Of a stretch of 64,000 nucleotides of DNA, positions 21,045 through 32,069 are shown piece by piece. The translations under genes and the position numbers were made by a program. The stretch's first letter is position 1; each line of letters begins with the position of its first letter. The stretch spans positions 62,001 through 126,000 of the forward strand of contig NZ_SZVP01000006.1 of the NCBI RefSeq assembly GCF_005885605.1, written 5' to 3'. This DNA comes from Colwellia ponticola (GTDB taxonomy: Bacteria; Pseudomonadota; Gammaproteobacteria; Enterobacterales; Alteromonadaceae). The notes beneath the pieces were generated by a model. That model saw only the letters and a program-made list of their open reading frames with translations, made no database searches and was not told where the DNA came from.

Positions 21045-22883
21045 TTAAGTAATCTTTAATTTTATTAATAATTGAGTCGTTTTCTCTATTTGATAAATAA
21101 TTTTATCGAATAGCTCAATATCTTGATCAAGAATTATTTTGTTAATTAATTTATTTATTCTATTGAGATAATTATCTAATTTTTTATTTTTAATATTTTT
21201 AGTTTCATCAAGTAAAGCAATAAAGTTCTCTTGAATTTGCCAAATCATCGGGTCGATAGGCGTAGGAACTCCGTTCAAGCGTTTATAGCTAACTTCTCCA
21301 CTTGGCAAGGTGCAACCACCGAAATTATAATTTTCATCTAAAATGATTGTATGAACGTGTTTATCTTTCATTTTAAAGATAATAAAAGGACAATGATCAT
21401 AAATAAAATATGCACTCTCAATTTTATTTAATAGATAACTATTAAAGTTTATTCTGTTTGAATATAACTTTGTTTTATCTTCTTCAAGAATTACATCATT
21501 ATATAAATCATCATATTTATATTCGGGTTTGAAAGTTAAAATTTTATCTTCAAGATTATTAATTTCTAAACTGTAATTTTCTATATCTTTTGATAATTCA
21601 CTTATTTTATTTTGTATTGGTAAAGCTGTGAAATCTCCCATTAGTAAAAAATTAAGATCATTACTCGCTTTTTCGTTTAAATCTTGAAGTTTAGCAAGCC
21701 TTAAATTTAGTTCTGTGGGTGGTTCAGGCTTTGGCATAAAGCCATTTTCTGTTGTAAGGTGCAATAGCATTAATTCAAGCGGTAAATACTTATAATGCTT
21801 ATTTTGAGAACATTCACCGCCTCTTTTCGAGTTAGCACAAGTTAAATATTTACCACCTTTAACTCTATCATTTCCTTTATTTACAAACTCCATTTTTCCA
21901 TCACAATGCCCGCATTTTATAAAACTTCTATATAAGTTTGAAAAGTGTTCATTGCTTAACTTGCCACGCCCGACCACTCTACTTTTTCTTGCTATTTGTG
22001 CTTTTAAAAAAGTTTCTTCATCAATAACTTGAGGATAATAATCTAAAATAGGATCTCCTAGAGGTTTACGCTTTTTATCTCCTATACCTCCGTGTTTACC
22101 GATGTGTGGCTGATATTCACCAAGAACTGATTTATCTGTCAAAATACGAGATACGCTTGTTCTCGCCCACAATTTACTTTTAGAGGTTGGAGTAGGAAAT
22201 TGATCAAGATTATTGTTTAACTGCCTTACAAGCTGGGTTACGCCTACACCCTCAATACATTTATCATAAATATATTTTATTATTTCAACACGATCTTTTT
22301 TTATATGGAATGTGGCTTTATCTTTTGACAAATTCAGCCAGTGAGGAATTAAAGAAGTTAACTTTTTAGTTTGTATGTTTTCACGCCTTTCGTCCCAACT
22401 TTCTTTAAGTCTTTTTTGTTTTGTAGAGCTTTCATTGTAAGCTCTCGACATTATGACAAGGCTCGTAATGATGTCTAACATTTGATTATCATTTTTTTCT
22501 GCTACATCATCTTCATCATCTTTGATATGTAGGTATTTTTTCTCATCTTGCGTTGTATAAATATTTACATATTCTAATAAATGCAAAAATTGTCTCATTG
22601 CGACATTTATTTTTTTGCGTGATAATCGATCTAAATTTTCAACAATAAGAAGAGAACCTTTTTCAATTTTTCCTGTTTCACAATCTTGAATAAATCTTTT
22701 CAAATTTTCTTGATCACCAGAAAAACCTGAAATACCCAACTCTTTATAAATTGACAACTCTTGATCTAATTCATAACCATTTTTATCACAATACGCTTGT
22801 GTCGCTGCTAGTTGTCGTCTAAAACTGTCGCCTTTGGCTTGTTGCGGAGAAGAGTAACGAATATATGAATATGCTTTTTTCAT
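21045..22883 (-). CDS. Large serine recombinase (integrase of the element)
   Basis: 612 residues. The N-terminal resolvase-type catalytic domain starts MKKAYSYIRYSSPQQAKGDS with Ser11/Ser12 as candidate nucleophile, and has ENLDRLSR further on. A recombinase domain follows (about 180-300), then a zinc ribbon (CGHCDGKM near 325, then LTCANSKRGGEC) and a C-terminal coiled-coil (about 385-460). This is the standard large serine integrase plan. It lies 30 bases inside attR, reading inward, and most likely catalyses integration at the comM attB. An excision factor is not identified. Confidence 0.93.
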   Translation of the reverse strand: MKKAYSYIRYSSPQQAKGDSFRRQLAATQAYCDKNGYELDQELSIYKELGISGFSGDQENLKRFIQDCETGKIEKGSLLIVENLDRLSRKKINVAMRQFLHLLEYVNIYTTQDEKKYLHIKDDEDDVAEKNDNQMLDIITSLVIMSRAYNESSTKQKRLKESWDERRENIQTKKLTSLIPHWLNLSKDKATFHIKKDRVEIIKYIYDKCIEGVGVTQLVRQLNNNLDQFPTPTSKSKLWARTSVSRILTDKSVLGEYQPHIGKHGGIGDKKRKPLGDPILDYYPQVIDEETFLKAQIARKSRVVGRGKLSNEHFSNLYRSFIKCGHCDGKMEFVNKGNDRVKGGKYLTCANSKRGGECSQNKHYKYLPLELMLLHLTTENGFMPKPEPPTELNLRLAKLQDLNEKASNDLNFLLMGDFTALPIQNKISELSKDIENYSLEINNLEDKILTFKPEYKYDDLYNDVILEEDKTKLYSNRINFNSYLLNKIESAYFIYDHCPFIIFKMKDKHVHTIILDENYNFGGCTLPSGEVSYKRLNGVPTPIDPMIWQIQENFIALLDETKNIKNKKLDNYLNRINKLINKIILDQDIELFDKIIYQIEKTTQLLIKLKIT

Positions 22884-22948: not shown

Positions 22949-23810
22949 TGGCACCGGAAAAACCATGTTAGCGAGTCGTTTGGCGGGTATTTTACCGCCG
23001 ATGACGGAAGAAGAAGCGTTGCAAGTTGCCGCTATTCAATCAATTAGTCATCAAGATATAACGCGTAAATCTTGGTTTACTCGACCTTTTCGTGCGCCAC
23101 ATCATACCGCGTCATCGGCGGCTCTAGTCGGTGGCGGCAGTCAACCCCGACCAGGAGAAATTACCTTAGCGCATAACGGCGTACTGTTTTTAGATGAGTT
23201 GCCAGAATTTGAACGAAAAGTGCTAGACGTATTACGAGAGCCAATGGAGTCAGGTGAAGTCACTATTTCTCGAGCTCTGCATAAACAGTGTTTTCCTGCG
23301 CGCTTTCAATTAATTGCCGCGATGAATCCTAGCCCTACCGGTTTTTATAACGACCAGCGTAGTACACCAGAGCAGGTATTACGCTATTTAAACCGCTTAT
23401 CAGGGCCTTTTCTTGACCGTATTGATCTGCAAATTGAAGTCGCTCGACTACCACGGGGTACATGGGCGCAGAGCACACAACAAAATGAGTCTAGTGCAAA
23501 AATACAGCAGCGAGTCCAAGCATGCCGAACAAGACAACTGCAACGACAGGGCAAGGCGAATGCCCATATTAGCAGTAGCGAATTGAAAAGCTATTGTGGA
23601 TTAAGTACTCAAGACAATGAATTTTTAGAACTTGTTGTAGAGAAGCTTGGTTTATCGACGCGTGCCCATCATAAAATTTTAAAAATTGCCCGCACCCTTG
23701 CCGATATGGAAGGCAGTGAAGATATTAGCCATCAACACCTTGTTGAGGCGTTATCTTACCGCGCTATGGACAGACTACTGCGACACTTAACGGGTAGTGT
23801 GTCGATTTAG
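22934..23810 (+). pseudogene. comM: comM (yifB), 3' fragment, split by mobile element
   Basis: C-terminal part of ComM, opening in frame with FIGPPGTGKTMLASRLAG (Walker A). It continues with the Mg-chelatase AAA+ core (GEITLAHNGVLFLDELPEFE as Walker B, AAMNPSPTGFYND) and the C-terminal helical lid (LSTRAHHKILKIARTLADME). An ATG at 22965 could start translation of a truncated 281-residue product lacking Walker A. The coding sequence itself looks intact, so function should return upon precise excision. Confidence 0.92.
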
Positions 23811-27009: not shown

Positions 27010-27624
27010 TTAAAAAGCGTAGCTTAGCGCTATATTAATGTTATCAACATCAGTATCTGATAGTTGAAAGCGTTGCCAATTAGTCGAGATAGCCCAACGT
27101 TCACTGACTTGATAACGCGCGCCAACACTTAAAAATAAGTCGGTGCCAGTATCATCGGTTGCTATGGTGTTATTGTCAAAAGTGCTGGTTAACTCGGCTT
27201 TCCAATTGAACAAACCTAGTTGTAAATCAAGTGCTATATTTTCACTGACCCAGAACTTATGGCCTGCCGATAAGGTAAAACCATTACCAAGTACCGGTCC
27301 TATATTTGTTAATTCTTGTTTAAGCGTGCCTGCTTGCAGCGTGTCTGCGGTTAAGGTGACACTGGCGTTGCCTAAATCTAAGTAGCCTGCACTCACATAC
27401 CAATGTTTATCAAATAGATAGGCAATGTTGGTATTGATACTGATGCCTGAATCATCAAGGGAAACAATGTGCAGTTGTTCACCTGAGGGAGTAATAGAAA
27501 GTTGCGTATCGGCAGTGCTATGACCTACACCTAGCGTAAGCTCCCATTGTGTACCATTCGCAACGGCTGTTGAGCTCATCACGAATATCGCCATTGCTGA
27601 CATAGTCACCATAATTTTTTTCAT
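27010..27624 (-). CDS. Small outer-membrane beta-barrel protein (OmpA-barrel/OmpW-like)
   Basis: 204 residues. Signal peptide [22 protein letters not shown], then alternating strands (WELTLGVGHSTADTQLSI, WYVSAGYLDLGNASVTL, WAISTNWQRFQL) and a terminal aromatic residue in NIALSYAF, as expected for an 8-stranded barrel inserted by BAM. Its ATG overlaps the stop of the upstream ubiquitin-containing gene (TAATG), so the two are translationally coupled and may work together on the cell surface. Exact family uncertain. Confidence 0.78.
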   Translation of the reverse strand: MKKIMVTMSAMAIFVMSSTAVANGTQWELTLGVGHSTADTQLSITPSGEQLHIVSLDDSGISINTNIAYLFDKHWYVSAGYLDLGNASVTLTADTLQAGTLKQELTNIGPVLGNGFTLSAGHKFWVSENIALDLQLGLFNWKAELTSTFDNNTIATDDTGTDLFLSVGARYQVSERWAISTNWQRFQLSDTDVDNINIALSYAF

Positions 27625-30600
27625 TAGTTTGAGCCTTTTAATAAACGTACTGATATATAGCGATTGATAACCAATAAGCTAAGCATCAACACTATCCAGC
27701 TAGGCAATGAGCCACCAGACGATTTATTCGTTACCGTAATTGTTTCATAAGCTTGTACCGACACGGTAACAATGCCTGTTACGTCAACACCGTTACCGTC
27801 GCTTACGTTATATTCAATAGTATCAACACCTTCAAAGCCTACTTTAGGGGAGTACACTAATTGGTTACCTTTAATCACCACACTGCCATGTTTCGCAAAG
27901 GCACTACTGATAGTTAATGGGTCGTTGTCAGCATCAGTATCGTTGGCTAACGCATCAATGGTGATAGTGGTGCGATCGTTAGTTGACGTATTATCAGCAG
28001 CGACTTCAGGCAAGGTATTGCTAATAACTTTCACCGATACTTGTGCGCTTGCAACGCCGCCATTACCATCGGTAATGCTGTAAGTAATCAAATCGTTACC
28101 GAGAAAGTTAGGCGCGGCCGTATAGGTGAGCAGAGCCTCGTCTTTAATAACCACGTCACCGAAATTCACATTAACACTTGAAATGACTAATGTATCACCG
28201 TTTGCATCAGAGTCGTTCGCAAGCACATCAATATCAATTGACTCGTTCCAGAACACCTCAATACTATCGGTTGTTGCAATTGGTGCAGTATTGCCACTGT
28301 TTAATACGGCAACACCACCAGGGTCAACAATGGCATTGTTGATCATGCCATCATCATCGTTTGGTCCGCCATCGCTCAGTGTTAACTGCACACACCAATG
28401 ACCTGCAGTCAGACCTGGAGTCCACTGAGCAGCATTAGGTGGAGGACAAAAACCAGGCTCTCCTAAGGTTGAATATATCGCGTTATATTCATCTTCAACA
28501 AAATTAACCCAAGTGTTATCGTTATTTAATTTGCGATAAATAGCGTTGTTTGGAATAGGCGCGTGTTGCGGGAATACTACTTGATACGTTTGACCTGCTT
28601 GTGGTAATCCGTAAGCGATAAAGTCAAATACACCACCAATATTGGCGGCTAACGTGTCATCACCCAAGGTGTTTTCAATTTCGGTATTACTTAATAAGGC
28701 ACCACCACTTTGTGCACTGGCAACAGAATTACCTTTGCGTAAACAAACCCCTGGCTCACCTTCAACTAAGAAGCCTTTTTGATTAGTGATGTGCGAAGGT
28801 AATACATTACACGCATTAATCGCATCGAGATAATTTGGAATGCCGTCACCGTCCTCATCACTATAGCCTTCGGCGTTATCAGGAATTAAATCGCCATCAG
28901 TATCGGTGCTAGCTAAGGCAGTTAGTGCATTAACTACTTCAATATAAACATTGGCTTGTGTGGTTTTAGTGGGTTCGCCATTATCACTTACCTCGACACT
29001 GAGTAAATACACCCCCACATCAAGTTCACTTGGGTTGATATTGACTACTTTCGAGCTTTCGCCGCTAATCATATTGTTAACGTCACTGTCAGTACTGTGC
29101 CATATAAAGCTATGCATATCTGACACATTTAAGTCGGTTACTAAAGCTTCAATGACAGCGCTACCAGCATTTTTGGCGAATAGTAAACGTTGCTCAGTAT
29201 CTTGCGTTACCAGTAAACTTACTTCTGGTGCAGCATTACCTTCAGTAATAGTAATTATCTGAGTTGCATTAGCGGAGGCATTGATTTCAGAGTCAATCGT
29301 GATAACAATAGTTTCAACATCTTCATCAAGGCCGTCATCAAAAATATTGAAGCTAACTGATGCGCTATTGGTTTCATCAATGCTAACAGAGTCAGCGATT
29401 AAGTCGTGGTCTGAGCCACTACTTGCACTACCACTAACCGTAAAAGGTACTTCAACAGGATAAGTGGGTGATTGTCCATTTAAGATAAAGTTAACAGTAA
29501 CACTTGAGCCTTCAATTACGGTTTGGTCTTTTGATATAGACACCAACGGGTGCACGGTAACCGTTTGTGCCGCGATAGTTTGATTACCTAAGCGATCAAC
29601 TGATTGCCAATAAGCCTTGTTATTGCCTGGCGCAAACATAATGTTGCCGTCAAGCAGATAAACCGGTAATGCCTGACCGTTAATATTAACGGCAGTGGCA
29701 ACACCTAATTCGGCTTTAGTATATAAACCCGTGGCATTAATGACGATATCATCAGGTAAGGTGATGACGGGTGCATCAGGGTCAGTACTACCCCCAAGGG
29801 TTAACACTACATTGGCTTTATCACTGCCATTATTACCGTCGCTAATGGTGTAAGATAAATTAACAACACCGGCATACCCTTGCTCACCAATATAGGAAAC
29901 AGATGCGTCGTTGATACTTACTTGACCAATATCAGCCGATATTGCCATGACTGTTAAGATATCACCATCTACATCTGTATCATTGCTCAGTAATGACAAC
30001 GCGTATTGGTTATTCGCGGCTTTAGGAAGTGCAATAGTATCATCGACAGCATCTGGTTTATCATTGACTGGATTCACCGTAATAGAAACAGTGGCTTGTG
30101 TAGAGTCAACCTCGCCATCATTGGCAATAAAGTTAAAGCTGTCATCACCAAAGTAATTAGCGCCTGGCGTATACTGCCAATTATCACCCACTTGCTCTAG
30201 TGAACCATTGCTTGGCAGACTGGTGATGGTAATAGCTAAGACGTCGCCGTCTAGGTCACTTACAGATAACATAAAGGTTGTCACGCCATCTTCATCAACT
30301 GAAATACTCTCACTATTTGCTACTGGTACATCATTAACTTTTTTAACGGTAATACTAAAAGCTGCTAACGAAGCGCTACTGGTATCAGTATCAGATACCG
30401 TGATAACAATACCTGAAAAAACACCTGAATTACCGTTACCTGGCGTGCCTGTTAACGCACCCGTTGCGCTGCTAAAGGTTGCCCAGCTTGGTTTATTGGT
30501 AATACTAAAGGTTTTAGTATCACCGGTATCAACATCGGTCACGGTTGGTATAAAACTATAGGCGGCATCTTCTGCAACCGTTGTAGCAGGCGAGCCTGAA

Positions 30601-32069
30601 ATAACGGGTGCATCGTTGGTATTTGTTACGGTAATGTTGAAACTCAGGCTATCTGTTGCTCCAGCTTTATCGGCAACGGTAATTACAATGCCGGTGACAG
30701 TACCTATATTGGCCTGTGTTGGCGTGCCCGTTAACGCGCCCGTTGCGGTGCTAAAGGTTGCCCAGCTTGGTTTATTGGTAATGCTAAAGGTTTTAGTATC
30801 ACCGGTATCAACATCGGTCACGGTTGGTATAAAACTATAGGCAGTATCTTCTGCAACTGTTGTAGCAGGCGAGCCTGAAATCACGGGTTTATCGTTCACC
30901 GACGCAATATTGAAGGTAAGTGTTTTCGTTGTTTCACCTAGAGTGCTTTCCTTCGCTAGAACGATAATAGTCCCCGCGTTAATGCCATTTAAATTAGGTG
31001 TGGGAGTGAATGTGAGGCTGTTCAGAGCGTTGTTTACATCAACTAAAGCGCCAGAAAACCTAATAAGGCTATCATCTAAGCCGTCGCCGCTCAGCAAGTT
31101 TATTCCTGTAGTATCTATTGAAATGTTACCGCCATTAGCGCTTAAAGTAACTTCTTGATTTTCACAATCGACATCAGTTATTTCAATGTCGTCACTAATA
31201 GCAACATTAGTTTCATCTTCGCTCACAATTGGTAATGGTGGCAGGTTTATTGAAGGTGGGCTGGGCAAACTTAAATTTATATCGTCAAAATAAAGACTAA
31301 AAATGTCTCTGGTAAAGTTGGTAATTCGAAATTCATCAATATCTGCAAACTCTGGGGTATCAGCAAAGCATATTTTTGATAATGCTTTATTACTAATGGA
31401 GAATGTTTTTAAAGCACCAACAACCTGACTACCATCTTTATAGCCGACAACATCAAAAACCACAGGGTTTCTTGTACTTATATCACTGGGGTAAACTTTA
31501 AAGTTATTTAAAAAAAACTCTGAGCGATCATTCGAACTGAACGCTACATCGATTAATTTATTCGTCCGCCCCTGATCTCTACCTGAAATAGAGTCTGTGT
31601 CACTAGTAATGTGTGAATCATTATGTATACCAATTGCAGCGTATTGCCCAGGTTCATTATCTCCCGTAACTGAAAAGTCCCAGCCGGTGCCTAAAATATT
31701 TTTAGCCAATGCTGTTGGGTTCGCATTCACGAATTGACCATCAGAAGCGCTGACCAAACCATCAAAGGTGGTTATTGTACTGGGCGCCAAATTCCTTAAT
31801 GCTAGAGTTAGCACAAGAGTTGATTCACTCTGGATATTATAATCACTTAATGTCCTATCATTTTCTAATTCTTTTATGCCAAAATGAAGGCGTTGCTGAT
31901 CTGGAGGAATGCCCTCTTTATCTTGGATTTTAGCTTTTACGTTTTCAATCGAGTCACCTGCTTCAACTTCTAAAGCAATCTTTTTTTCTGTTGATGTTTC
32001 GACAAAAATTAGCATAGCTTGTAAATTAAAAGAGCAAAACATGAAGAGGACAATGGTTATTAATTTCAT
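27624..32069 (-). CDS. Exported ubiquitin-domain protein with cadherin-like repeats and GlyGly-CTERM-like anchor
   Basis: 1481 residues. Signal peptide at 1-18 ([18 protein letters not shown]). Residues 19-94 are a ubiquitin domain, about 55 of 76 identical to eukaryotic ubiquitin ([20 protein letters not shown], then RTLSDYNIQ); predicted cleavage leaves its Met1 as the mature N-terminus. The ubiquitin GG end is NL, so conjugation is not expected. Then: a beta-rich domain (about 95-280), two near-identical 93-residue He_PIG/cadherin-like repeats (about 394-580), further cadherin/Ig-like repeats, a Calx-beta-like domain (about 841-945), a calcium-binding [13 protein letters not shown] stretch (about 1055) and a tail with SSGGSLPSW, a membrane helix and Arg/Lys, like GlyGly-CTERM. 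Coupled to the downstream OMP gene. Function unknown; surface adhesion or host interaction is inference. Confidence 0.9.

Follow-up and report, generated by a model that had tools for sequence, protein, structure and literature searches.

A ubiquitin domain heads a surface-type repeat protein of Colwellia ponticola and appears to belong to a broad class of exported bacterial ubiquitins

Textbooks present ubiquitin as a modifier that works inside eukaryotic cells. The closest described bacterial system is BfUbb of Bacteroides fragilis, presented as a unique bacterial homologue in one source (excerpts of PMC3352274) and, in another, as one among a small number, with antibacterial activity directed at kin (excerpts of PMC5705921). 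BfUbb and the protein described here share a bacterial gene, a signal peptide ending before Met1, and the lack of a usable C-terminal Gly; however, BfUbb is a free, soluble antibacterial protein of 76 residues, whereas the domain described here heads a large surface-type protein of 1481 residues (compared with excerpts of PMC3352274 and PMC5705921). A secreted ubiquitin of plant-parasitic nematodes likewise combines a signal peptide, ubiquitin and a C-terminal extension, but it is eukaryotic, acts in the plant, and carries an extension of 12 residues (excerpts of PMC5705921). As regards the tail of the protein, the substrates of the GlyGly-CTERM/rhombosortase system share with it a Gly-rich motif, a hydrophobic stretch, and a basic end (excerpts of PMC6219818 and PMC3237569). 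Ubiquitin-headed surface proteins, or a wide class of them, were not found described in the open-licence literature (which covers few subscription journals) beyond the B. fragilis case, and the excerpts of PMC4378268, PMC1949818, and PMC11354881 contain no second bacterial case.

The protein is encoded in a 64,000-nucleotide stretch of C. ponticola DNA (the window), and its features are collected in Table 1. An initial annotation had placed a ubiquitin domain in this protein, with about 55 identities to human ubiquitin over 76 positions; its coordinates were correct, with the domain on the minus strand, and a gapless alignment of human ubiquitin to residues 19–94 gave 55/76 identities. The Pfam family PF00240 matched the protein at 8e-21 (74 bits; cut-off 25.4), and a phmmer comparison with single-ubiquitin chains in the PDB reached ~5e-28. 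A model of residues 1–300 showed a confident ubiquitin fold over the domain (block-mean pLDDT of 97–98 across residues 21–90 and 69 across residues 91–100), which superposed on single-ubiquitin chains with a TM(target) of mostly 0.91–0.98 and an rmsd of mostly 0.5–1 Å. Residues 19–94 are thus confirmed as a true ubiquitin homologue, as opposed to a chance or generic beta-grasp similarity, and the genome has no second match at E ≤0.001.

Table 1. Features of the ubiquitin-headed protein and of the adjoining barrel gene in the window.
Feature	Position	Strand	Basis
OmpA-type outer-membrane beta-barrel, 204 a.a	27010..27624	(-)	profile/sequence comparison
Whole protein, 1481 a.a	27624-32069	(-)	ORF
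GlyGly-CTERM-like tail and stop codon	27624..27719	(-)	tail under family cut-off
Stalk of tandem-95/Big_9/cadherin-like/He_PIG Ig-like repeats	27747..31169 (outer borders approximate)	(-)	profile matches
Choice-of-anchor U domain within stalk	residues 1146-1255	(-)	profile match
Family-less stretch, ~200 residues	31170..31787	(-)	no Pfam/NCBIfam match; model confidence mostly low
Ubiquitin domain, predicted mature N-terminus (residues 19-94)	31788..32015	(-)	Pfam, phmmer, alignment, model
Signal peptide, 18 residues, cleavage expected between ...LQA and M	32016..32069	(-)	by eye plus hydrophobicity and A/V-x-A count

Among the differences from human ubiquitin are the substitutions L8S, I44H, V70T, K6E, K63S, and R72A. 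The first three fall on L8, I44, and V70, which we take to form the Ile44 patch, the receptor-binding surface of ubiquitin; with S, H, and T at these positions the patch is polar in this copy, making classical receptor binding unlikely. Positions 75–76 read NL where human ubiquitin has GG and 1387 residues continue behind them, so that no C-terminal GlyGly is exposed and conjugation via the C-terminus of this copy is excluded.

The remainder of the protein has a surface-type layout. Signal peptides were called by eye together with a simple hydrophobicity and A/V-x-A count, and the predicted junction (NLQA, then MLIFV), with ubiquitin beginning right behind it, supports the 18-residue signal peptide of the initial annotation. 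The ~200 residues behind ubiquitin were modelled with block-mean pLDDT values of 27–72 (model of residues 1–300). In the stalk, the tandem-95 profile NF012211 scored 213.4 bits (cut-off 90), and Big_9 and Cadherin_4/5 were matched by Pfam, which bears out the cadherin-like half of an earlier "cadherin/Calx-beta-like" label; the Calx-beta half found no Pfam match in this protein, although Calx-beta was matched in its relative L096. The C-terminus, read earlier as a surface-anchor tail, has the shape of a GlyGly-CTERM tail (a glycine motif, then a hydrophobic stretch, then a basic end) but scored 12.9 and 14.1 bits against TIGR03501, under the cut-off of 15.5. A rhombosortase is encoded in the same genome (TIGR03902, 173.7 bits; cut-off 84), and the autotransporter barrel PF03797 was absent by Pfam from the protein. 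Taken with the adjoining barrel gene, the repeats and tail support a surface-type architecture, and surface exposure is well supported, if not proven, by these features; cleavage at Met1, surface location, and orientation are what we infer from them. Elsewhere in the window (21045–22883 and 22965–23810), the C-terminal part of a YifB/ComM-type gene adjoins a gene for a large serine recombinase, as if an element had inserted into the YifB/ComM-type gene.

The ATG of the barrel gene overlaps the TAA of the ubiquitin gene by one base (TAATG). In a genome of the same order (G343; L097), ubiquitin, NHL and Ig-like repeats, an OmpA-type barrel, and an OmpA peptidoglycan-type domain occur in a single polypeptide of 2525 residues, while in a complete Pseudoalteromonas plasmid (L094) and in a genome of the same family (G647; L096) a barrel gene lies directly upstream of a ubiquitin-headed giant. 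The barrels of the window and L096 share 22% identity (E of 9e-12 in a single comparison and 2.8e-9 in a genome search); a tblastn search with the window barrel at E ≤1 found the barrel of L097 alone and missed those of L094 and L096. From these arrangements, the barrel would belong to the ubiquitin-headed protein. Matches to the window barrel at E ≤0.001 were present in 123 of 295 genomes of the family (own counted), many inside frames of >1000 residues, and the weakest of the 123 may be other OmpA-like barrels. The tandem-95/choice-of-anchor giants of this family share with the window protein the repeat stalk, the choice_anch_U domain, a GlyGly-CTERM-like tail, and an overlapping or fused barrel; in G643 and G510 (L140, L141), giant and barrel gene overlap by four bases. 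Unlike the window protein, nine such giants (seven closed, L133–L136, L138, L139, and L143, and the front part of L144 and L145) showed no ubiquitin in a profile scan of their first 300 residues, their heads matching Big_12, DUF4347, or Laminin_G_3, with six having no match. The presence of repeat-barrel giants with other heads in the family suggests that the window protein is a giant of the local type whose head is ubiquitin.

Around the window, ubiquitin matches were found in 4/394 genomes of the order sample (own counted; two of these a short protein of another kind), in 4/295 of the family sample (own counted; one weak, one partial) but in none of its 15 other genomes of the genus, and in 2/398 of the phylum sample (own counted). 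A match in G406 (5e-4, 26% identity) was not counted. Of five congeneric genomes, four have the interval between ppnP and an Hsp70-like gene in full, and the ubiquitin and barrel genes are absent from it; they are likewise absent in the fifth (L130), where the stretch ends before the Hsp70-like gene. In G357 (L137), a repeat-barrel giant, its N-terminus cut by the contig end, lies beside the same Hsp70-like gene (identified by eye). Three kinds of match deserve mention: a partial one (residues 17–50) opening a long repeat protein in G434 (L100:10129-11979); a short ubiquitin-like protein shared by two congeneric genomes (L099:9563-9853 and L004), with a LysM protein gene nearby in G170; and a ubiquitin-headed protein of 259 a.a without a signal peptide, whose gene lies downstream of a VgrG-type gene, a few genes away, in G728 (L142:8756-9535), and which scored 26.6 and 24.0 bits against PF00240 in two scans (cut-off 25.4).

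Across bacteria, a genome-contig scan found at least 159 relatives, a lower bound since the scan was seeded with query peptide words such as KAKIQDKE and SDYNIQSE, the conservation of which is thereby inflated. Among the matches listed, 72 of 80 loci were kept and eight without a recognisable signal peptide were left out; the window, viral-contig, plasmid, and genome-search loci bring the full set to 83 domains at 80 loci. Loci left out by eye for having no signal peptide were L012, L019, L027, L041, L043, L051, L068, L075, L089, and L090, some of which carry tandem or RGG-ended ubiquitin, as in eukaryotes, though not all ten need be eukaryotic; L003 and L004 were left out as another kind. The domain begins with Met in 82/83 cases and is preceded by Ala in 71/82. 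Of the 82 domains with at least 15 residues upstream, 81 have a hydrophobic stretch with a permissive −3/−1 pair, a loose form that stands without a control, and the strict A/V-x-A form precedes ubiquitin in 61/82, as against 7/458 neighbouring ORFs (many perhaps not genes; residue 24 only). The hydrophobic-stretch test alone is weak, being passed by 204/458 neighbouring ORFs and by two of the ten testable excluded domains (L003 and L004). A signal peptide precedes ubiquitin almost throughout the set. The fusion is therefore no isolated case, and by its sequence the protein belongs to a wide, little-described class in which an exported bacterial ubiquitin forms the N-terminus of secreted proteins with unrelated anchoring systems. 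Reviews by Burroughs, Iyer and Aravind may touch on secreted bacterial ubiquitins.

Records not marked MAG or uncultured by their titles account for 21 of the 72 loci (nine Pseudomonadota, six Bacteroidota, five Bacillota, and one Campylobacterota), placing ubiquitin-headed secreted proteins in at least four phyla, with more by metagenome labels. The labels of all rows name 15 phyla, some doubtfully; L007, titled a cyanobacterium, and L046, titled Methylotenera, have neighbours that share 78% identity. Among the 81 full proteins (window counted), an autotransporter barrel was found in 21 and SLH (S-layer) domains in three, both at E ≤0.001, while a T9SS tail was found in seven and IPTL-CTERM in four at a loose E ≤0.5 (six and three, respectively, at 0.001 in Pfam). 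The passenger of the short autotransporters (L007, for example) consists of ubiquitin and ~100 more residues. A few free forms were also seen, among them the products of four tandem genes for secreted ubiquitins of diverged sequence in Pedobacter cryoconitis (L009:7228-8627). In Dyella (L035:6758-8228) and a viral-collection contig (L085:3593-5134), a signal peptide is followed by ubiquitin with its RGG end intact, each gene being preceded by one for a related 370–386-a.a protein (46.6% identity). No ubiquitin match was found in phage records.

We favour, as a reasonably probable reading, that the surface-displayed, non-conjugatable ubiquitin is a stable ligand-binding tip on an Ig-like stalk tied to the outer membrane. 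Sec would export the protein, and signal peptidase would cut so that the mature chain starts with Met1 of ubiquitin; attachment to the outer membrane would come from the C-terminal tail and from the OmpA-type barrel, whose gene is translationally coupled. The display routes found here hold a protein by its C-terminal part and leave its N-terminus unbound, which should put ubiquitin at the far end of the long stalk as its free tip. This tip, very stable and protease-resistant, may bind its ligand through a part of its surface outside the lost Ile44 patch. The identity and position of the domain, the architecture, and the class can be read from the sequence; any binding of a partner by the domain, and the choice of partner, is a guess. 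Arguing against the tip are the tail score under the GlyGly-CTERM cut-off, the rarity of ubiquitin heads near the window, the L094 and L096 barrels missed by tblastn, and the lack of a recurring neighbour, other than generic or lineage-limited clusters, in the 50 loci with flanks. Heading secreted and surface-type proteins in at least four phyla, ubiquitin gains a second, extracellular life without conjugation; its binding target becomes a testable question in cultured strains, and the many natural variants under other selection may tell which ubiquitin surfaces serve which function.

The strongest rival, which we consider rather doubtful, is that ubiquitin is a passive cap, kept for its fast folding and protease resistance, that shields exported N-termini and binds nothing. 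In 79 distinct domains (realigned and de-duplicated), identity to human ubiquitin was 0.94 at 18 core positions, 0.865 at 48 others, and 0.77 at four Ile44-patch positions, which speaks for a passive cap; the scan words inflate part of these values, V70 lies close to the fusion joint, and the lists of core and patch positions are those we presume to hold for ubiquitin. Fusion to many unrelated bodies also suits a cap, as does the lack of an overall partner gene: all-against-all comparison of 458 ORFs across 50 loci with flanks yielded no recurrent partner, an absence that fits a passive domain equally well. Seven neighbour clusters reached at least three loci, being generic (ABC transporters, regulators) or lineage-limited, the most telling a SET-like gene. 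On the other side, the non-core positions are still highly conserved (in part by the scan words), and among 15 hand-picked pairs, dN/dS of the domain lay between 0 and 0.22 for 12 and at ~0.55 for another whose members are nearly identical (two not computable). Free secreted copies, such as the four tandem Pedobacter genes, have no body to cap, and BfUbb has an activity of its own (excerpts of PMC5705921).

The most interesting rival, a special case of the ligand-binding tip, is antagonism, in which the domain would harm close relatives in the manner of BfUbb, here by contact given that it is anchored. We judge this unlikely. BfUbb has the same junction of signal peptide and Met1, likewise lacks a terminal Gly, and acts on kin strains (excerpts of PMC5705921). 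The patchy presence of the domain among genomes and the VgrG-type gene near L142 would agree with such a role, but BfUbb is small and soluble, whereas the window copy heads a protein of 1481 residues, and no immunity-like neighbour recurs. A later paper reportedly names a peptidyl-prolyl isomerase as the target of BfUbb.

A second special case, proposed in the initial annotation as contact with a protist, alga, or animal, is receptor mimicry, or disturbance of such a eukaryote's ubiquitin system. High similarity to eukaryotic ubiquitin speaks for it, as do hydrophobic residues at positions 8, 44, and 70 in 61 of the 79 bacterial domains (one of the other 18 merely cut short). These residues are lost, however, in the window copy (S/H/T) and in L094 and L096 (P/T/T), and the window copy further carries R72A and no GlyGly, which counts against the proposal for this protein; GlyGly at 75–76 is found in just 5/79 domains, with six of the others ending before it, and cytosolic ubiquitin enzymes are not ordinarily within reach of a protein anchored outside the cell. 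We regard this reading as distinctly improbable. Contamination or misassembly fusing a eukaryotic ubiquitin to a bacterial gene is scarcely credible, even in a draft genome of 238 contigs, given one intact frame within a long contig, the ubiquitin-repeat-barrel layouts of independent records (L094, a complete plasmid, L096, and L097), the 21/76 differences from human ubiquitin, and the same head in L078, a record of Pseudomonas protegens whose title reads chromosome, complete genome.

An ultimately eukaryotic (or eukaryotic-virus) origin of the domain is plausible, and with signal-peptide–ubiquitin heads so widespread in bacteria, the nearest source may be another bacterium. GC3 of the domain tracks that of the flanking ORFs (Spearman 0.77, n = 73, some near-copies), pointing to resident copies. 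In a tree of 72 positions and 100 rows, 3/92 inner branches were starred and eukaryote-like rows were scattered; it held almost no eukaryotic sequences, and L094 and L096 entered without a one-residue gap, giving false long branches, so neither a single nor a multiple origin can be claimed from it.

More tentatively, and as something we hold to be somewhat less than probable, the class as a whole may represent a general extracellular ubiquitin shared by bacteria: an ultimately eukaryotic module placed at the mature N-terminus of surface proteins through five unrelated display routes (autotransporter, T9SS, exosortase-type IPTL-CTERM, rhombosortase-type tail with OmpA barrel, and S-layer), kept under purifying selection as a tip for cell–cell recognition, one branch having a SETD3/LSMT-like methyltransferase that may modify it.

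As for the SET-like gene, the predicted fold of its ~330-a.a product weakly resembles SETD3/LSMT SET-domain proteins, which we offer as a lead only. Three members scanned had no Pfam match, and a sequence profile retrieved nothing from the PDB. The model was of moderate confidence (mean pLDDT of 68), and its first 18 Foldseek hits were SETD3, Rubisco LSMT, and chains of the plastid RNA polymerase complex, the last presumably SET-type PAP subunits, at a probability of 0.75–1.00 but with TM ≤0.40 and an rmsd of ~12–15 Å. The gene adjoins a ubiquitin-autotransporter in six loci: L046, L061, L007, L020, L006 (divergent), and L033 (downstream).
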